A DNA stretch of 40,581 nucleotides from Muribaculaceae bacterium. Lineage in GTDB: Bacteria; Bacteroidota; Bacteroidia; Bacteroidales; Muribaculaceae. Below the pieces are notes generated by a model. It was not told the DNA's origin. It saw only the letters and a program-made list of their open reading frames with translations, and searched no databases. The stretch's first letter is position 1, and the number at the start of each line of letters is the position of its first letter. Both the position numbers and the translations under genes were made by a program. The stretch covers positions 1 through 40,581 of the forward strand of contig JAGAUV010000028.1 of assembly GCA_017620635.1 (NCBI GenBank), read 5' to 3'. Shown piece after piece: positions 6,462 to 40,566 of the stretch.

Positions 6462-7604
6462 TCAGGATAGCTCAGAGACAGGCACTACGCCTATGCCCGG
6501 GCGGTCGGGCAGCGTTATTTTGCCGTCGACGATTTTCATGCCGTCGAATATGTCGTTGGCGATAAGGAGATTGCCGTCGAGGTCGGCCCAGTCTACCATA
6601 GGCGCAAGCTGAGCTGCGGCACTGACGGCGCAAGATGTTTCGGTCATACATCCGAGCATCACTTTCATGCCCATAGCCCGAGCGAGAGTCGCCATCTGAT
6701 AGGCTTCGTGCATGCCTGTGCTCTTCATCAGTTTTATGTTTATTCCGTCGTATGCTCCGGCCGCACGTCTTATGTCGGGCAAGCGCTGCAGGAACTCGTC
6801 GGCAATGATAGGGAGGGGCGAGCGCTCACGCAGCCAGGCGGTGTCGTCGATAGCTTTTTTGTCCATAGGCTGCTCAACGAACAGACAACCGCGGTCGGCA
6901 AGCCAGTGGCACATCTCGAGCGCTTTGTTCTTGTCGTTCCAGCCTTGGTTGGCATCTACGCAAATGGGCACGTCGGTGTGTTTCCGCAGGGCCTCAACGA
7001 TCTCTTTGTCGTGATCAAGACCCATTTTTATCTTTATGACCTTGTATGGCGCTGTCTCCTCGATCTTCTTGCGCATTTCATCGGGATCGGCGTCGTAGCT
7101 TATTGTAAAGGATGTGTTGGGGCACTTGTCGGGATTGAGACCCCATATCTTGTACCACGGCTGTCCCATAATCTTGCCGACAAGGTCGTGCAGGGCTATG
7201 TCGACAGATGCTTTTGCCGCACGATTGTTGGGCGCCACATTGTCGAGATATTCGAGAATGTCTTCGATACGGAAGGGGTCGTTGAACTGACTCAGATCAA
7301 GCTTAGAAAGGAACTCGCATACCGAAGCTACCGATTCTCCCAGATATGGGGGCATGGAAGCTTCGCCATAGCCGACCAAGCCGTCGTATTCGATCTCGAC
7401 CTGTACGCCCGGTGTGGTGGTGCGTTGTGAACGGGCAAGATTGAATGCGTGCCGGAGCTGTAGCTCATATGGGCGGAATCTCAGATTGAGCGAGCCGCTG
7501 CGTCCGGTCTGTTTTGTCGCCTGACCGAAGGCGGAGAAAGATATTGGGGATGTGGCGGCAATAGTGCCGAGTATGCCTGTGCGGATAAAATTTCTACGAT
7601 TCAC
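6462..7604 (-). CDS. L-Ala-D/L-Glu (dipeptide) epimerase
   Basis: Enolase-superfamily enzyme predicted to epimerise L-Ala-D-Glu from murein so that the dipeptide can be degraded. The capping domain occupies about residues 38-155 and the barrel follows. The KxK motif is Lys191/Lys193 in KVIKIKMG. The metal ligands are Asp218 (VDANQGW), Glu244 (VEQP) and Asp269 (ADE). The opposite catalytic lysine is Lys291 in INIKLMK, and the DLDG at 341-344 is typical of dipeptide epimerases. The N-terminus RRNFIRTG followed by a hydrophobic stretch looks like a twin-arginine export signal, which is unusual for a step normally thought to be cytoplasmic. It lies 24 bases downstream of an NlpC/P60 peptidase gene of YkfC type, a common partner. 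Confidence 0.88.
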   Translation of the reverse strand: MNRRNFIRTGILGTIAATSPISFSAFGQATKQTGRSGSLNLRFRPYELQLRHAFNLARSQRTTTPGVQVEIEYDGLVGYGEASMPPYLGESVASVCEFLSKLDLSQFNDPFRIEDILEYLDNVAPNNRAAKASVDIALHDLVGKIMGQPWYKIWGLNPDKCPNTSFTISYDADPDEMRKKIEETAPYKVIKIKMGLDHDKEIVEALRKHTDVPICVDANQGWNDKNKALEMCHWLADRGCLFVEQPMDKKAIDDTAWLRERSPLPIIADEFLQRLPDIRRAAGAYDGINIKLMKSTGMHEAYQMATLARAMGMKVMLGCMTETSCAVSAAAQLAPMVDWADLDGNLLIANDIFDGMKIVDGKITLPDRPGIGVVPVSELS

Positions 7605-7628
7605 TGTCGGGTTGTTATTTATGGAGAG

Positions 7629-8798
7629 TTAAAAGTACCAGGGATGGTTACGGGCACGAGTGATGCCCGGAGTCTCTTCGTTGCCAGCAATGCGGACGGC
7701 ATGGAGGAAAGGCGTGTCGAGGTAGCTCTCGGATTCGGGGTCGACGCTGTTACGTTTGACCCGGCCGGAAGAGTGCACGTAGTTGCCGTCGTGGTCGTAT
7801 ATAGCAACGTGGGTAACTTTGCCAGTGCGTGCGTTACCGAAGAAGAGGAGGTCGCCGGGGCGGCATGAGCGCCAGTTGGCGGCTTCTATCCTGCGCCCTG
7901 TACGTGCTTGTTGCGAGGCGTCGCGCATTAGAATGAGTCCGTTTGCGTAATAGCTTACTTTTGCAAGTCCGGAGCAGTCGAGGGCTTTGGGAGATGTTCC
8001 GCCCCATAGGTAGGGAGTGCCTTCCATAGAATATGCGATGTCGAGGATACGGTCGGCATCGAAATTCTGTGCCGCCCAGGTCTCGATCGGGGTAAGATCG
8101 TCGGTGTCGACAAAGCCGGTGCGGCCGTTGGGGAGCTCTACACCTATGCGTCCGTCCGTGACATGCACTTCATTGCCGGGAACAGTGACTATACATCCGT
8201 TGACAAGGTCGGACACAACATCGCGCAGGCCTTTGGTTGTGGGTGTGCGCCATGCCCTTGTCTGGAAAGGAGAGGAAACGATAAAACGACGAGCCTGCCG
8301 CCATTCTTTCATCTCGGCCGGGGTCTTCGCTACAATCGACGAAGAAGGAATCCATGCGATGTATCCGTCGGGTGTCTGTACGTGCCACCAGTCGCCGCCT
8401 TTATGCAGTACACGGAGGGGGGTACCCATAAGAGCCTGAGTCGCCATCTCGGCGGAGTGCCGTCCGGCCGTGCGCATACTTGCCACCGATATTCTGACCT
8501 GTGCCCATTTGTCGTAAGGCAGCAGGTTGATTTTGTCGGCATAGTCGATGTCGGCCTCGTCCAAGGCTTTTACAGTGGCGCGCATTGCTGTTGAATCGGA
8601 TACATCGCCGCCGACAACCAGGCTGCCTTCGTTGTTGTTATAGGCCTTTATGTCGTATACTATCTGTCGGCCGTCGGGTGCATATTCCGCTTTTACGTCT
8701 TTTATGCATTCCTGTGCCTTGGCAAGCATATTTGCCGAAGACTGGGCGTAGACCGGCACTGCGGCGACGCATAGGGCTATTATGGCGAGATAATTCAT
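7629..8798 (-). CDS. NlpC/P60 peptidase with SH3 domains (YkfC-like)
   Basis: Predicted gamma-D-glutamyl-L-diamino-acid endopeptidase that cuts murein peptides and releases L-Ala-D-Glu. A signal peptide covers residues 1-18 (cleavage after VYA). A helical N-terminal part (about 20-110) and two bacterial SH3-like modules (about 115-160 and 170-235) precede the C-terminal NlpC/P60 domain. The catalytic residues are Cys275 in ALDCSGL, His330 in VTHVAIY and His342 in YVHSSG. At 389 residues the architecture matches the periplasmic Bacteroides YkfC-like proteins. It starts one base after the transglutaminase stop and is followed by the dipeptide epimerase, giving a pair that produces and then processes the same dipeptide. 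Confidence 0.9.
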   Translation of the reverse strand: MNYLAIIALCVAAVPVYAQSSANMLAKAQECIKDVKAEYAPDGRQIVYDIKAYNNNEGSLVVGGDVSDSTAMRATVKALDEADIDYADKINLLPYDKWAQVRISVASMRTAGRHSAEMATQALMGTPLRVLHKGGDWWHVQTPDGYIAWIPSSSIVAKTPAEMKEWRQARRFIVSSPFQTRAWRTPTTKGLRDVVSDLVNGCIVTVPGNEVHVTDGRIGVELPNGRTGFVDTDDLTPIETWAAQNFDADRILDIAYSMEGTPYLWGGTSPKALDCSGLAKVSYYANGLILMRDASQQARTGRRIEAANWRSCRPGDLLFFGNARTGKVTHVAIYDHDGNYVHSSGRVKRNSVDPESESYLDTPFLHAVRIAGNEETPGITRARNHPWYF

Positions 8799-8799
8799 T

Positions 8800-10194
8800 T
8801 TAGGGTTCTGCTATAGGAGTTATGGAAATAAGGTCGAAGTTGATGTCCCATGCCGGATAGAAGAGGTTTCCACGAGTTGTCTCTACTTCTCCAAGCTGGA
8901 AGTCGACAGTTTCGCTTCTTACAAATTTTTTGGGAGGGAAGAGATTGCCGCAGACACCCTTATTGGTGGCGAAGCGGTGTGCGTCGATGCCATGGCTGCA
9001 GAAGTTGGTTATTTCGGGCTTGTCGGCACCGTTGTATCTTCCAAATGACATGTCGACGGGAACCCATCCGATGCCTTCGAAGTAAACTTCGGCCCAGTCG
9101 TGCAGATTTGTCTCGCCCGGATGCAGCATCCAGCCGCTTTCCCAGCGAGCCGGGACGCCAAGGCTACGCATGAGCGAGATGTACAGCAAGGATACCTGGC
9201 CGCAATCGCCGTGCCGCTCGGTCAGTACGTATTGCGGTATGCACGGGATTGTGCTGTACTCACGGGCTCCGGCCCAGGGGAAGTTGGTGTCGATCCAGTC
9301 GTAGATAAGCTCGCTCTGTCGGAAGGGGTTTGTCTCATCGCCAGTTATTTCGTGGGCGAGGGAGTCGAGACGGATGATATGTGGCTTTTCGAAGGATGTG
9401 TATTGCCGGTAGGTGTCGCTGCTTTTGTCATAAGGTCTGATCGCTTTGATAATCGCGTCTTCAGAATAGTATGCGCCTGAGACGATGTATTCTCCGACAT
9501 ATTCGAAATGAGCGGTATCGCCGGGCTGCGGTGCCGGAGCTGTGAAGAATATGGTGTTGTGGACCGAGCGGTTGTCGGATAAAATATATTCGGCCGGCGA
9601 TGCGCTAATGATACGCAAGTCGCGCTGGCGTCCGCCTTCCGGATTTGTCAACGGCAGCGGCATCCATACTTTCAGAGTGTCGCCGGAATATATTTCGTGT
9701 CCGGGAACGTCGATGCTGAATCTGTATTTTACCCGATGGCTGAGCCCAAGAGGGTTGTTGCCTTTATAGTACTCGAGAACAGAGTCGACGTAAGAGTATC
9801 TGTTTCTTGCGGCAAGATCGCCGTTGCCGTTAGTCGCTTTAGAATACTCAGGGTTGAGCAGGTCGAGATTATTCGGCGATTTACGATGAAAGCGCCGGAC
9901 TCCATCTATTGTCATAGCTTCGATGTAGTGCCCGGCGAGGAATGTGTCGAGCATTGCTTCTGTAATGTCGGGATGCCGTTGTTTTATGGCTTCGAGTATC
10001 TCGTCTTTCGATAAAGAGAAGTCGGCGGCGGTGCGCGCCGCTATTGCTGCCGCAGAATCGGTCTCGAACCATGCAGGATGTTCATTCTGCGACTCCGAAC
10101 GAGTAAGACCCAACTTCACGGCTTCGTGATAGACCATATAGGCGCCAAAAGCTCCGATAGCTATAGCGACTGCAAGAATAATGACTTTTTTCAT
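8800..10194 (-). CDS. exported transglutaminase-like protein
   Basis: A 464-residue protein with an N-terminal signal anchor (residues 3-22) and a C-terminal transglutaminase-like cysteine-protease fold. The triad is visible as Cys331 in RHGDCGQVS, His365 in LHDWAEVY and Asp381 in WVPVDMSFG. The middle (about 155-245) looks like a beta-rich domain often found before such folds. The N-terminal 60-110 region is helical and unassigned. Related bacterial proteins are putative peptidases or amidases, and no substrate is established. As first gene of an operon with a murein endopeptidase and dipeptide epimerase, a role in trimming cell-wall peptides is reasonable but inferred. The operon promoter lies at 10226-10256. 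Confidence 0.8.
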   Translation of the reverse strand: MKKVIILAVAIAIGAFGAYMVYHEAVKLGLTRSESQNEHPAWFETDSAAAIAARTAADFSLSKDEILEAIKQRHPDITEAMLDTFLAGHYIEAMTIDGVRRFHRKSPNNLDLLNPEYSKATNGNGDLAARNRYSYVDSVLEYYKGNNPLGLSHRVKYRFSIDVPGHEIYSGDTLKVWMPLPLTNPEGGRQRDLRIISASPAEYILSDNRSVHNTIFFTAPAPQPGDTAHFEYVGEYIVSGAYYSEDAIIKAIRPYDKSSDTYRQYTSFEKPHIIRLDSLAHEITGDETNPFRQSELIYDWIDTNFPWAGAREYSTIPCIPQYVLTERHGDCGQVSLLYISLMRSLGVPARWESGWMLHPGETNLHDWAEVYFEGIGWVPVDMSFGRYNGADKPEITNFCSHGIDAHRFATNKGVCGNLFPPKKFVRSETVDFQLGEVETTRGNLFYPAWDINFDLISITPIAEP

Positions 10195-11709: not shown

Positions 11710-11740
11710 CAAAGTTACAAAGAATTTGCGAACTTACAAA
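11710..11740 (-). promoter_or_regulatory. gdhA promoter
   Basis: On the minus strand TTTG (11737-11740), a 19-base spacer and TAACTTTG (11710-11717): a full match to the Bacteroidetes housekeeping consensus. The start site should be near 11703, about 52 bases before the ATG. Confidence 0.8.
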
Positions 11741-11777: not shown

Positions 11778-12452
11778 TTATTCGTGCTTTATGTATAATG
11801 CGGTAAAAGCTTTGTCGAGTCTGGATATCATACCGTCGTAATGATTGCCTTGTACAGACTCGAATACTGTGTCTATTCCAAACTTGTCGAGCCTTTTTAA
11901 GACGAGCTGGGTGTCTGTCGCAATAGATTTAAAAGCTTTGACACGAGTCTTGCTTTCTTTATTGCCAAGCAGGAAGTAGGCCATACCCTGTTTGGGCGGA
12001 ATGTCACGGATATTAAGCCATGTAGTAAAACCTTCGTACCATAAGGATGCAGACAGACAAGCTATTGATCTGAATATATCGCAGATGACCCATTGCCATG
12101 TCGCGAAAAGGCCAGACAGAGAGACTCCGACGAGATCACGAACGACAGAACAGTCGCAGCCAAGGCGTTTTTCCGTGTCCGGGATAAGTTCATCGCGCAG
12201 CTTTTCGAGAAACCCGGGTGCAAGCCCCTTGAACGGACTCGAGCCTTTTGGCTGTCCCTTTGCCGGCCATGGGGTCAGATCATCCAGCCATCGCATTCCA
12301 GTGACTACAACGATTGTGGTGTCGTAGCGCAGGGCTGCAGAGTCAATCCATGAGCCGAGGATATCGACCGGATATAATATGTATGTGATGCGGCCCGGAT
12401 TTGTAGATGAACTGCACATTACATGCATGCCGGCTATATCGTGTCTATTCAT
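11778..12452 (-). CDS. esterase-like alpha/beta hydrolase
   Basis: A 224-residue cytoplasmic protein with no signal peptide. It resembles the putative esterase (esterase D/enterochelin-esterase-like) branch of alpha/beta hydrolases. The likely nucleophile is Ser111 in LVGVSLSGL, where the last Gly of the GxSxG elbow is Ser. FLLGNKESKTR (160-170) matches the strand and loop that usually carries the acid residue. His204 in QGNHYDG is the likely catalytic histidine. It overlaps the preceding GNAT gene by 4 bases and is the last gene of a coupled adenylation-GNAT-hydrolase operon. It may hydrolyse an ester or thioester made by its partners, or act as an editing hydrolase. The substrate is unknown. 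Confidence 0.65.
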   Translation of the reverse strand: MNRHDIAGMHVMCSSSTNPGRITYILYPVDILGSWIDSAALRYDTTIVVVTGMRWLDDLTPWPAKGQPKGSSPFKGLAPGFLEKLRDELIPDTEKRLGCDCSVVRDLVGVSLSGLFATWQWVICDIFRSIACLSASLWYEGFTTWLNIRDIPPKQGMAYFLLGNKESKTRVKAFKSIATDTQLVLKRLDKFGIDTVFESVQGNHYDGMISRLDKAFTALYIKHE

Positions 12453-12895
12453 TTTTTTAATGTCATAATATCGGGCATTGCAGCGAATCCGATTGATTCA
12501 TAAAGTGATTTAGCCATCGGTGTGCTTTCGAGGAATATTTTGTCGCATGCGCGTTCGCGGCATTCCCGGATAAGTCTCCTGACGATAGCGTGACCGATCC
12601 CTTTGTTGCGGAATTGCTGACGCACATATATGTTCATTATATACGCGCATAGCCCCGAGGGATTGTCGGGAGAGGGGAGTTCGGAATAAAAGCATACAGC
12701 ACCGCATCCACAATCCTCGCCCATATATCTTGCAATGACTGCAAAATGAGACCCGTCGGCGATGTGTTCGCGATAGTATCGCCGGTTGGCCACAAGAAGG
12801 CGTTTGTCGGGCTCGATGCCGAATACAGAGCGAATAACTTCCATCCTCCAATGTATCAGTGTCGGGACTGCCTCGACTTTGACTATAGATATCAT
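12449..12895 (-). CDS. GNAT-family acyltransferase
   Basis: A 148-residue protein with the GCN5-related N-acetyltransferase fold, transferring an acyl group from acyl-CoA (or possibly another thioester) to an amine. The central strand MNIYVRQQF leads into the pyrophosphate-binding loop RNKGIGHAIV (residues 96-105). A C-terminal segment AKSLYESIGF (128-137) is the usual motif B. The substrate cannot be read from the sequence. Its start overlaps the adenylation gene stop by 4 bases and its own stop overlaps the hydrolase start by 4 bases, so all three are translationally coupled. This coupling suggests a shared pathway or complex in which an activated amino acid is acylated. Confidence 0.75.
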   Translation of the reverse strand: MISIVKVEAVPTLIHWRMEVIRSVFGIEPDKRLLVANRRYYREHIADGSHFAVIARYMGEDCGCGAVCFYSELPSPDNPSGLCAYIMNIYVRQQFRNKGIGHAIVRRLIRECRERACDKIFLESTPMAKSLYESIGFAAMPDIMTLKK

Positions 12896-14331
12896 ACTGC
12901 AGCCCCTTCTTTCATGATTACAGGAAGCATCTCTAAATCGATTTTTCCTCTGCGTGTTATAGGTATCTGTTTCATTTTCACAAAAAACTCTGGCACCATG
13001 AAGTCGACAAGACGCTCAGAAAGCCATTTGTGAATCTCGTGAAGCGTACAGGCTGCTTTCGGCATGAGATAAGCGACGAGATAGTACAATCCGTTTTCAT
13101 CGAGGAATGCCCGGACAATGCCTCTGTCGACACAAGGACAGGTGTTAAGGATGTTCTCAACTTCTTCGGGTTCGACACGTTTGCCCATAATCATTACCTG
13201 ATTGTCGCGCCGATGAAGAAATACTATGTTTCCGTCGTCCATTTCATATCCGACATCGCCGCTTCGGTAGAATCTTGCGCCGTTTTTTATTGAGACGAAG
13301 TTTTTTTGCTCAGGAGGATTCCCGGTATATCCTTGGGCGATACCTTCGCCAAAAATACATATCTCTCCAACTGTACCTTTGGGGACTTCCCTAAGATTAT
13401 TGTCGAGAATTTTCACTTCAACGCCTTTGATCGCTTTGCCGACGGGGAATGTGCCGTCGGGCAGAGCTTTTGCATTGTCGATTCTGTAGTAGTTGGAACA
13501 TACGGTGGTTTCCGATGGACCGTAAGTATTATATATTATGATGCCTTTGTCGCGCAGATTGTTTATGTAGCTTTCTCGAACGACATCTCCACCGCTGATA
13601 ATTAAGCGGATAGAGGGCGGTATACTCTCAAGCTTATTCATCTCTGCAAGCAGATAGGGGAACCCGTCGACAATTGTCACTCCGTGTTTTTCTACAAATT
13701 CCATGAGTTCGCGGATGTTGCCGTTGCGCTTCTTCTCAGACGGTATGCACAGGGCTGCACCGTTGAGTAATGTTGCAAAAACTTCTTCTACAAATATGTC
13801 GAACGAACATACAGAGTACTGCAGCATTATATCTCCTCGGCCGATATTAAATTCGTTTTCAAATGCTCGGGTGTAGTTTGTAACAGAATGATTCTCAATT
13901 ATCACACCTTTTGGCCGGCCGGATGTGCCCGAGGTATATAGTATATATGCCGGAGCGTTCGGCTCAGATCTGTCTGGCATGACACGGCCGGTGCCGCGAG
14001 CTTTGTTACAATAGTCATCCGTTATTATAAGGTCTACGCCGGCTGTCTGCATCATATAGTCGGTCCTTACCTTCGGGATGAAAGGTTCGGTCGGTACATA
14101 TGCAGCACCACTCTTAAGAATAGCGAGCATGGCAGCGATCTGACGTGGGCCGTGCCGCATTATTAATCCGATTCTCGGAATATGCCGGTCATAGAATAGC
14201 GCCATTATTTCGTTTGCCATATCGTTGAGCTGACTGTATGTGAGTGTCTGCTCCTCCGTAATAATGGCCGGGGCATCAGGTTGACGTTCGACGATAGACT
14301 CAAACTTCGAATAAATGGTATTGTCTGCCAT
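12892..14331 (-). CDS. stand-alone amino-acid adenylation enzyme (NRPS A-domain-like)
   Basis: A 479-residue ANL-superfamily enzyme predicted to activate an amino acid as its acyl-adenylate. Core motifs are all present: YTSGTSGRPKG (132-142), FDIFVEEVF with Asp178, NTYGPSETT (268-276), YRSGDVG (355-361), the hinge RRDNQVMIMGKRVEPEE, and the catalytic Lys463 in RRGKIDLEML. Asp178 matches the residue that binds the alpha-amino group in NRPS A-domains, so an amino acid substrate is likely. No condensation or carrier domain is attached, and no carrier protein gene adjoins. The ATG at 14331 was chosen because alignment to the family begins there; a TTG (14409) and an ATG (14394) lie in frame upstream. 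No clear promoter was found. DltA-like D-alanine activation is an alternative. Confidence 0.8.
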   Translation of the reverse strand: MADNTIYSKFESIVERQPDAPAIITEEQTLTYSQLNDMANEIMALFYDRHIPRIGLIMRHGPRQIAAMLAILKSGAAYVPTEPFIPKVRTDYMMQTAGVDLIITDDYCNKARGTGRVMPDRSEPNAPAYILYTSGTSGRPKGVIIENHSVTNYTRAFENEFNIGRGDIMLQYSVCSFDIFVEEVFATLLNGAALCIPSEKKRNGNIRELMEFVEKHGVTIVDGFPYLLAEMNKLESIPPSIRLIISGGDVVRESYINNLRDKGIIIYNTYGPSETTVCSNYYRIDNAKALPDGTFPVGKAIKGVEVKILDNNLREVPKGTVGEICIFGEGIAQGYTGNPPEQKNFVSIKNGARFYRSGDVGYEMDDGNIVFLHRRDNQVMIMGKRVEPEEVENILNTCPCVDRGIVRAFLDENGLYYLVAYLMPKAACTLHEIHKWLSERLVDFMVPEFFVKMKQIPITRRGKIDLEMLPVIMKEGAAV

Positions 14332-14377
14332 AATATATGTATTTATAGTCGTGCATATACCATATATAATGACAGAA

Positions 14378-14404
14378 GACGCCGGGTTGTTCATTCCCGA
14401 CGCC
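14378..14404 (-). terminator. possible terminator after the ROK kinase gene
   Basis: On the minus-strand transcript GGCGTCGGG (14396-14404) pairs with CCCGGCGTC (14378-14386) over nine positions, using two G-U wobbles, with a 9-base loop. The wobbles break the pairing on the other strand. No strong U-tract follows, so it may only attenuate readthrough from the mannose operon. Confidence 0.4.
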
Positions 14405-14423
14405 TTCAAGTTATCTTCAGAAC

Positions 14424-19776: not shown

Positions 19777-19808
19777 CAAAGTTAGTCAAAAAAAACAATC
19801 TTGGCAAA
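19777..19808 (-). promoter_or_regulatory. promoter of the GH92-GH43-manA-ROK operon
   Basis: On the minus strand TTTG (19805-19808), a 20-base spacer, then TAACTTTG (19777-19784). Initiation near 19770 gives a 20-base leader, which supports the ATG at 19750. Confidence 0.78.
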
Positions 19809-19874: not shown

Positions 19875-19905
19875 TTTGCAGTTAAGCAAAAATGTTGTAC
19901 CTTTG
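19875..19905 (+). promoter_or_regulatory. GH30 promoter
   Basis: TTTG (19875-19878), exactly 19 bases, then TACCTTTG (19898-19905): a full consensus match. Initiation near 19912 leaves about 9 bases before the ATG at 19921 and rules out the in-frame start at 19855. Confidence 0.8.
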
Positions 19906-30085: not shown

Positions 30086-30117
30086 TTTGTGGCGTTGCGG
30101 AATAATTCTTAAATTTG
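30086..30117 (+). promoter_or_regulatory. promoter of the dnaN operon
   Basis: TTTG (30086-30089), 20 bases, then TAAATTTG (30110-30117). Initiation near 30124 gives a leader of about 63 bases before the dnaN ATG. Confidence 0.7.
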
Positions 30118-39932: not shown

Positions 39933-40508
39933 TTATGAGTTTTGGGGCCTGAAGGTCTCAAAACTCCCATCTGTATATAATACTATTATCGACGATATCT
40001 GACGGGTGTCGTCATTAGGTATTTCAGCAAGTGTTTGCTGTGTGGTCCTGTTTTTGTCGGAATAATTATCGTTTGGCGTCTTGTTGTTCGGGAATACCGT
40101 ACGCGATGGGTCTGTATTGGGTTTTGTCTGCTCGTTTGTTCTATTTGAGAACGAAAATAAATTTGCGTTTTCGGCAGTGTCGTAGTTAGAAGTTGCTTCA
40201 TTATCAGTTGCTTGGGCTGGCATTCCTTCAACAAACTGCATGTTTTGAAGCTCTGAGGTTTCGATATTTGTTGTTTGCAACATATCTCCACGGCCAAATA
40301 AAAGCCATAAGATGTTGAGCTCGGGAAAAGCTGCATTAAGTTTCGCGAGGACCTGATTGTTGACAGATTTATTTCGCCCATGCAGCATTTGTGATAAGCT
40401 GGGGCGGGGTATACCGGTTTTGTCTGCAAACTGTGTGCTCGAAAGCCCGGTAGAGTTTATAAATAGGATCAATCTGTCTAAAACAGGGTTTTTGTCGTCG
40501 TTTTCCAC
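39933..40508 (-). CDS. XRE-type helix-turn-helix regulator with disordered linker
   Basis: A 191-residue probable DNA-binding regulator. The helix-turn-helix spans residues 20-65 (STQFADKTGIPRPSLSQML, recognition helix about 35-43). Residues 75-165 are a low-complexity Asn/Thr/Ser/Gln-rich linker. A short C-terminal motif SSIIVLYTDGSFETF (172-186) looks like a conserved beta-hairpin and may mediate binding. The GTG at 40508 is chosen because the only upstream ATG (40565) lies between the -33 and -7 boxes, before any likely transcript start. The gene is convergent with the fucosidase, 6 bases apart. Its targets are unknown. Confidence 0.75.
   Translation of the reverse strand: MENDDKNPVLDRLILFINSTGLSSTQFADKTGIPRPSLSQMLHGRNKSVNNQVLAKLNAAFPELNILWLLFGRGDMLQTTNIETSELQNMQFVEGMPAQATDNEATSNYDTAENANLFSFSNRTNEQTKPNTDPSRTVFPNNKTPNDNYSDKNRTTQQTLAEIPNDDTRQISSIIVLYTDGSFETFRPQNS
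39937..39966. terminator. possible hairpin terminator between fucosidase and XRE genes
   Basis: GAGTTTTG (39937-39944) pairs with CAAAACTC (39959-39966), with G-U pairs extending inward. It overlaps the last codons of the XRE gene. Neither side has a strong T-run, so efficiency is doubtful. Confidence 0.35.
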
Positions 40509-40534: not shown

Positions 40535-40566
40535 CAAATTTAAAAATAAAAATTGAAACATGCAAA
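40535..40566 (-). promoter_or_regulatory. promoter of the XRE regulator gene
   Basis: On the minus strand TTTG (40563-40566), 20 bases, then TAAATTTG (40535-40542). The sequence TAAATTTGCA occurs at both elements (40533-40542 and 40561-40570), 28 bp apart. Initiation near 40528 supports the GTG start at 40508. Confidence 0.65.

Follow-up and report, generated by a model that had tools for sequence, protein, structure and literature searches.

Introduction

The stand-alone adenylation domain of streptothricin synthesis reportedly ‘forms amide bonds’, to judge by the title of Maruyama 2012. This domain acts with beta-lysine (PMC10522769). In the streptothricin set, beta-lysine is joined to a drug scaffold, and acetyltransferases and an isochorismatase-like hydrolase act as resistance enzymes (PMC11702664, PMC10522769). 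Here we describe a three-gene locus, hereafter the trio, encoding an adenylation (A) enzyme, a GNAT N-acyltransferase and an alpha/beta hydrolase. It lies in a 40,581-nucleotide contig of a Muribaculaceae bacterium (JAGAUV010000028.1, assembly GCA_017620635.1), the whole of which was analysed and is called the window. The trio resembles the streptothricin set in its stand-alone A-domain, in the basic diamino acid that it would use, and in the acetylation and hydrolysis that it would bring to the same kind of molecule. It differs in having three genes only, an Asp for an alpha-amino acid in the predicted pocket, and a hydrolase of another family.

DltA is likewise a stand-alone A enzyme, of about 500 amino acids, but its pocket differs from that of the trio enzyme. 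DltA was ruled out as an identification because the trio enzyme reaches 213.6 bits with the TIGR01734 equivalog model, whose cut-off is 559.85, and no DltB, DltC or DltD was noticed among the open reading frames (ORFs) read in the window. The hydrolase shares its fold and a Ser-Glu-His triad with the siderophore esterases IroE, Fes, PfeE and EstB (PF00756), and the E, S and H mutants of EstB named in PDB titles agree with this triad. It is shorter than these esterases (224 amino acids), and Pfam does not detect the window protein; siderophore genes were not noticed near the trio.

The epsilon-poly-lysine synthetase and PosA resemble the trio enzyme in their type of pocket code, in which Asp and Glu occupy the same places (PMC10522769), but they carry a fused carrier and membrane condensation-like domains, none of which is found in the trio. 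The A enzyme was accordingly rejected as a cationic homopoly(amino acid) synthetase, being a 479-amino-acid protein with A-domain matches only. By sequence profile, it is nearer to LgrA, GrsA and TycA. Lastly, the OaaA/ACP/OaaC fatty-acid amide clusters of gut bacteria also consist of free-standing parts resembling non-ribosomal peptide synthetases (NRPS), but there a fatty acid is activated, and an acyl carrier protein (ACP) and a condensation domain are present (PMC13142362). Judged from its sequence, the trio seems to work like a minimal stand-alone NRPS-type pathway.

Results

The three genes are conserved together

Each protein was used to search 198 genomes of the family, with cut-offs of at least 460 bits for A, E 1e-12 for GNAT and E 0.001 for the hydrolase. 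The limit for the A clade was chosen after a gap had been seen between 469.6 and 399 bits. The count leaves out 12 lower-scoring matches, of which 11 are in genus g6 and one is in genome G115; six of these 12 were fetched. The A clade was present in 43 genomes, the GNAT in 50 and the hydrolase in 63. All 43 A-clade genomes had both partners, whereas of the 155 genomes without A only 7 had the GNAT and 20 the hydrolase (Fisher 1e-36 for the pair A-GNAT, 2e-28 for A-hydrolase, not corrected for kinship). A sequence-only reading of the locus had staked its proposal beforehand on the three genes being found together elsewhere, and so they were.

The three genes adjoin in 30 of the 43 genomes. In 11 others the set is spread over two contigs, nine with A and GNAT together and the hydrolase elsewhere, two with GNAT and hydrolase together and A elsewhere; unrelated ORFs follow the pieces in 10 of these 11 cases. 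In G055, the A-GNAT piece reaches the contig end, which may reflect an assembly break. Altogether 37 loci, including four near-identical copies, hold all three genes, always on one strand and in the order A-GNAT-hydrolase (30 loci), hydrolase-A-GNAT (six) or A-hydrolase-GNAT (one; this is the order in G027). Gaps from A to GNAT lie between -14 and +3 in 35 of 36 cases; ORF starts were set mechanically, and overlaps at loci other than the window are approximate. Distances correlate over the 37 loci (Pearson 0.84-0.88, not corrected for the species tree). In G121, an 835-amino-acid UvrA-like gene separates A and GNAT (L116:2334-4841:-).

Besides the genome of origin, at least one of 395 genomes in a phylum sample (G591) carried the A clade, with the full trio, and in an order sample of 295 genomes the clade was not found outside the family. 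Both tallies are lower bounds, with three to five candidates fully scored per listed genome. In a Blautia-centred family sample, 6 of 200 genomes had the A clade, the query's own included; one of the six is a contig-edge fragment, and the trio is present in the four other new ones. It was also found in records L032-L036, two of which are from Faecalibacterium and three from Blautia. In the sampled genomes, the A clade is thus rare outside the family.

Could the three genes be coincidental neighbours with unrelated functions? Without A, 18 of the 198 genomes have the hydrolase only, five the GNAT only and two both, which leaves some room for this idea. It is nevertheless hardly conceivable, given that co-occurrence is complete even where the genes lie on different contigs, that the distances correlate, and that the same trio is found in another phylum in a different order. 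Because the trio recurs in Bacteroidota and in Faecalibacterium and Blautia, we dismiss a chance neighbourhood, and the three genes appear, from these comparisons, to be one functional unit and a conserved system. Full-text literature searches, whose coverage excludes most subscription journals, gave no description of this trio among the titles and abstract openings listed.

An NRPS-type A enzyme with a predicted pocket for a basic amino acid

The A enzyme matches PF00501 and PF13193 as a complete A-domain, and no other domain was matched in its 479 amino acids. It scores 311 bits with TIGR01733, just short of the 317.4 cut-off, versus 187 bits with the best acyl-CoA ligase model shown. The equivalents of Asp235 and Lys517, namely Asp178 and Lys463, are kept in all 47 distinct clade members. 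This amino-acid-adenylation profile on an AMP-binding fold is that of an NRPS-type A-domain, so that the enzyme is, as the sequence-only reading had it, complete, stand-alone and, by its scores, of the type that would activate amino acids. A plain acyl-CoA ligase was ruled out by the model scores and the two residues.

The same reading had also suggested that CoA could be the acceptor. The A enzyme would then form lysyl- or ornithyl-CoA in the manner of an acyl-CoA ligase, and the GNAT or the hydrolase would consume the thioester. The superfamily is indeed shared with CoA ligases, and GNATs, as is generally known, bind acyl-CoA. We nonetheless consider this route very unlikely, in view of the profile scores, because GNATs normally use the acyl group of CoA, and because activated ornithine should cyclise, as the lactam formed from ornithyl-AMP would lead one to expect (PMC8001834).

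The pocket code was read from an alignment anchored on that of LgrA, using the GrsA numbering and motif positions. It consists of D178, I179, E182, D222, I245, G247, T269, V277, C278 and K463, that is, DIEDIGTVCK. Nine of these residues had been listed before; the tenth (GrsA position 278, Asp222) had been missed. The statement that the code matched none known therefore holds for the incomplete nine only, as the full code is close to published codes of lysine/ornithine type (PMC10522769, PMC12283262). An earlier guess at a basic amino acid, made without Asp222, is for that reason stronger than was thought.

In PosA (code DMEHNGTVSK), the alpha-amine of ornithine or lysine is bound by Asp at position 1 and its side-chain amine by Glu at position 3, with assistance from Thr at 7 and Ser at 9, and the codes listed for its relatives include DLEDIGTV[TVI]K and DIESIGTVTK (PMC10522769). 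Other lysine/ornithine codes are DMEDVGSVDK and DGEDHGTVVK, and arginine codes read D-A/V-E-D-I/V/L-G-A-V/I-T/D-K (PMC12283262). The codes of 47 distinct members of the trio clade, drawn from A genes with over 45% identity to the query, all fit DIE[DS]IGT[VI]CK: 24 are DIESIGTVCK, 22 DIEDIGTVCK and one DIEDIGTICK. An acidic residue for a side-chain amine, as in enzymes for lysine or ornithine, is thus always at hand, Glu182 being invariant and position 222 being Asp or Ser. Together, these codes make a fairly strong case for a basic alpha-amino acid as substrate, and this would most likely be a diamino acid of the ornithine/lysine type. At code position 2, lysine enzymes have Ala, ornithine enzymes Met and diaminopropionate enzymes Phe (PMC10522769), and because it is Ile here, a substrate of ornithine size would be rather favoured. 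A search of the full-text literature for the pocket code found no paper, although codes printed with spaced letters, as they are in PMC10522769, would escape it.

The 12 places left out of the count hold a paralogous A group (39-43% identity). In the six examined, Asp178 is replaced by Asn in all and Lys463 is gone in five. The paralogue-only genomes (G006, G090, G117, G130, G161 and G191) have neither the GNAT nor the hydrolase (6/6). A paralogue lacking the key Asp, in genomes lacking both partners, provides a natural negative control for the A clade. These sequences (L098-L103, for instance L098:5326-6804:-) may perhaps represent a non-adenylating relative. At three of the six loci, an ATPase-like protein of about 520-540 amino acids, named by eye, lies beside them.

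The GNAT and the hydrolase

The GNAT matches PF00583 with 52.7 bits. Its acetyl-CoA loop (R96..G99) is of the R/Q-x-x-G-x-G/A kind, with R96 invariant and G99 nearly so over 36 sequences. These two residues, W16-R17 and the family motif E72-x-P-S-P-D-N-x-x-G81 are exact in 45 of 51 GNATs. Among the six exceptions, L104 and L115 belong to trios, whereas L117, L118, L120 and L126 come from genomes without A, from which six GNAT loci had been fetched. Since most exceptions are at loci without A, this small sample suggests that the GNAT may be constrained because of A.

The window hydrolase alone gave no Pfam or NCBIfam match at E 0.01, nor a PDB match by phmmer at E 0.1. However, 35 of 41 aligned members of its group match PF00756 (Esterase). 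In Foldseek, the AlphaFold model (mean predicted local distance difference test, pLDDT, 95.5) is nearest to EstB, BES, PfeE, IroE and Fes, and a profile search also points to siderophore esterases. Ser111, Glu166 and His204 are conserved in all 53 distinct hydrolases, including those from loci without A. The modelled alpha/beta-hydrolase fold and the Ser-Glu-His triad are those expected of a siderophore-esterase-like PF00756 hydrolase.

No recognisable carrier accompanies the trio

NRPS-type adenylation enzymes of the closest solved structures load carriers, yet no carrier is fused to the A enzyme or adjoins it, as the sequence-only reading had stated. Among 513 neighbouring ORFs at 72 loci, no carrier was found by a GxDS-type motif, 19 matches having been dismissed by eye on size and context. 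As suggested earlier, the genome of origin, 88.6% complete, was searched for a carrier encoded on its own and for a phosphopantetheinyl transferase (PPTase). It has one PPTase, and its one PP-binding domain is the AcpP adjoining FabF. PF00550 was then counted in 33 of the 43 trio genomes and in 18 genomes without the trio, picked mostly for completeness, the genome of origin being treated separately. One match was found in 20 trio genomes, two to five in 12 and none in one; the corresponding numbers without the trio were 10, seven (with two to six matches) and one. From these counts and the lack of a carrier-like neighbour ORF, it follows that the trio brings no recognisable carrier, which argues, with moderate strength, that it would be carrier-independent.

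The A enzyme might instead load AcpP, or an unrecognised carrier, in trans; the GNAT would acetylate the bound aminoacyl group and the hydrolase would be a stand-alone thioesterase. Several observations speak for such a scheme. The closest solved structures are of carrier-loading A-domains, the model of the enzyme took the thiolation pose (template-modelling score, TM, of 0.90 to thiolation-state LgrA), and AcpP and a PPTase are available in the genome of origin. Free-standing pairs of A enzyme and ACP also exist in gut bacteria, as in OaaA/OaaACP/OaaC (PMC13142362). The nearest structures and the modelled pose would, however, be weak evidence of carrier use. Besides the empty neighbourhoods, the PP-binding number is not raised with the trio (exactly one in 20/33 versus 10/18), AcpP charged with lysine or ornithine would be expected to compete with fatty-acid synthesis, and the fold of the hydrolase is nearest to siderophore esterases. 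We therefore regard loading in trans as rather unlikely.

The trio moves between genomes

L032 of Faecalibacterium and L033-L035 of Blautia share blocks of 4001-4525 bp at 99.5-99.6% identity, and outside the block nothing else matches at E 1e-20; two blocks end at or near contig ends. A second locus from Faecalibacterium matches L032 along 6.8 kb at 97.8% identity. Near-identical blocks in two genera indicate that the trio moves. Its neighbours mostly vary between loci, so that it looks self-contained, and on these comparisons the trio appears to be a largely self-contained, horizontally moving set. The L032 block (L032:4766-9291) also holds a YjbR piece, a radical-SAM piece and what is, by eye, a DUF5131-like fragment.

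A phage-borne system was rejected: the hydrolase gave four weak matches to phage records (27-31% identity), no match to A or GNAT was found in these four (12.5 kb of one, three whole), and none of 58 candidates was confirmed when viral contigs were scanned with the A alignment. In a plasmid search with A, none of the 70 records found reached 60% identity; the 15 matches listed have 33-35% identity and are nearly all annotated as ordinary NRPS.

A YjbR-like gene lies within four genes of the trio or of one of its members at 10 of 72 loci (L032, L035, L036, L087, L092, L106, L115, L121, L145 and L150), three of which are near-identical copies. These neighbours were grouped by blastp, and three representatives were confirmed by Pfam. 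YjbR as an obligate fourth member was ruled out, as it is present in 139 of the 198 genomes. HxlR-like regulators were seen at four of the 72 loci (L068, L084, L148 and L150) and AraC-like regulators at five (L074, L089, L106, L116 and L118); two representatives of each were checked by Pfam.

Mobility and these recurring YjbR, HxlR and AraC neighbours make a role in resistance or stress a serious rival, if an unlikely one. In such a detoxification cassette, the A enzyme would couple a toxic amine to a basic amino acid, while the GNAT would acetylate a drug and the hydrolase cleave one. We know of no A-domain within a resistance cassette. The trio is accessory (43/198) and shared at about 99.5% identity between Faecalibacterium and Blautia, the neighbours just listed and the one UvrA-like gene are of a stress or regulator kind, and acetyltransferases or a lactam-opening hydrolase inactivate streptothricin, a compound that contains both beta-lysine and a lactam (PMC11702664). 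But YjbR is widespread in the genomes of the family, and no resistance-like gene adjoins the trio in the window, where ORFs were read by eye.

Layout of the locus

In the window the trio reads A-GNAT-hydrolase (Table 1), and the four-base overlaps noted earlier are confirmed, with ATGA at each junction. Its upstream neighbour is a ROK-like gene and the next gene downstream is glutamate-dehydrogenase-like, both named by eye. The hairpin in the upstream interval, folded as RNA from 14424-14330, is unusually stable (z = -3.53; none of 200 shuffles was equally stable). No match to the Bacteroidales-type promoter pattern was found for the trio itself. The match before the downstream gene suggests that the trio's unit stops ahead of that gene, and with the hairpin upstream, the trio is probably a separate unit.

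Table 1. Features of the trio and its flanks in the window.
Feature	Positions	Strand	Basis
A enzyme, stand-alone, 479 aa	12892..14331	-	PF00501/PF13193/TIGR01733, pocket alignment, model pLDDT 89
GNAT N-acyltransferase, 148 aa	12449..12895	-	PF00583, invariant columns over 36 sequences
Alpha/beta hydrolase, predicted siderophore-esterase fold, 224 aa	11778..12452	-	Model pLDDT 95.5, Foldseek, conserved Ser111-Glu166-His204
12-bp hairpin in the interval between upstream gene and trio, possible terminator	14375..14407	-	RNA fold
Bacteroidales-type promoter match TTTG-N19-TAACTTTG, before next downstream gene	11710..11740	-	Pattern match

Elsewhere in the window, Bacteroidales-type TTTG-N-TANNTTTG promoter matches bring the total to six, at 11710-11740, 19777-19808, 19875-19905, 30086-30117, 40135-40165 and 40535-40566, versus 0.6 expected by chance. 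Consecutive dipeptide-epimerase-like, NlpC/P60-like and transglutaminase-like ORFs at 6462-10194, identified by eye only, perhaps serve murein-peptide recycling.

Discussion

We tentatively favour a mobile, carrier-independent pathway, in which a basic diamino acid would be adenylated and turned into an N-acetylated amide, ester or lactam. The A enzyme would adenylate a diamino acid of the ornithine/lysine type, with Asp178 binding its alpha-amine and Glu182 its side-chain amine. Bypassing a dedicated carrier, the activated aminoacyl group would pass straight to an acceptor with an amine or hydroxyl group or, alternatively, to the side-chain amine of the substrate itself to give a lactam. The free amine would be capped by the GNAT with acetyl, or another acyl group, from CoA. 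The Ser-Glu-His hydrolase would then open or transfer the ester, amide or lactam, as a last or a recycling step. For the order of these steps and the nature of the product, the indications are weak.

Ornithyl-AMP made by a lysyl-tRNA synthetase is known to cyclise to the lactam (PMC8001834). If the same happened here, a carrier would be unnecessary. By analogy, one may imagine a carrier-free route to a lactam signal, in which ornithyl- or lysyl-AMP would yield 3-amino-2-piperidone or aminocaprolactam, the GNAT would make an N-acyl-aminolactam, and the hydrolase would open or recycle it. This particular version is distinctly unlikely; were it true, N-acyl-aminolactams would be the lactam counterpart of N-acyl-homoserine lactones, and the trio a minimal, mobile small-molecule pathway common to gut Bacteroidota and Clostridia.

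Several points weigh against the carrier-independent pathway. AcpP or CoA could serve as the acceptor in trans. The nearest structures load carriers, and the enzyme was modelled in the thiolation pose; as its core A motifs also look intact, a loss of thiol transfer is not apparent. PF00550 may miss odd carriers, and 12 of the 33 trio genomes have two to five PP-binding matches. The arginine consensus agrees with the trio code at seven of ten positions, and a pocket code points to a class of substrates, not to one substrate. Finally, 20 of the 63 hydrolase genomes and seven of the 50 GNAT genomes are without A, and these two proteins can, on that distribution, each have another job.

Single A-domains without a carrier are easily dismissed as fragments. 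Here, one belongs to a three-gene set that is kept together in two gut phyla and has passed from genus to genus, and its pocket code hardly varies. The product would be testable by combining the three proteins, once purified, with ATP, acetyl-CoA and a basic diamino acid. If the carrier-independent pathway is real, it would be one of the smallest NRPS-like pathways, and its product a gut metabolite presumably overlooked by genome-mining rules that demand a carrier.

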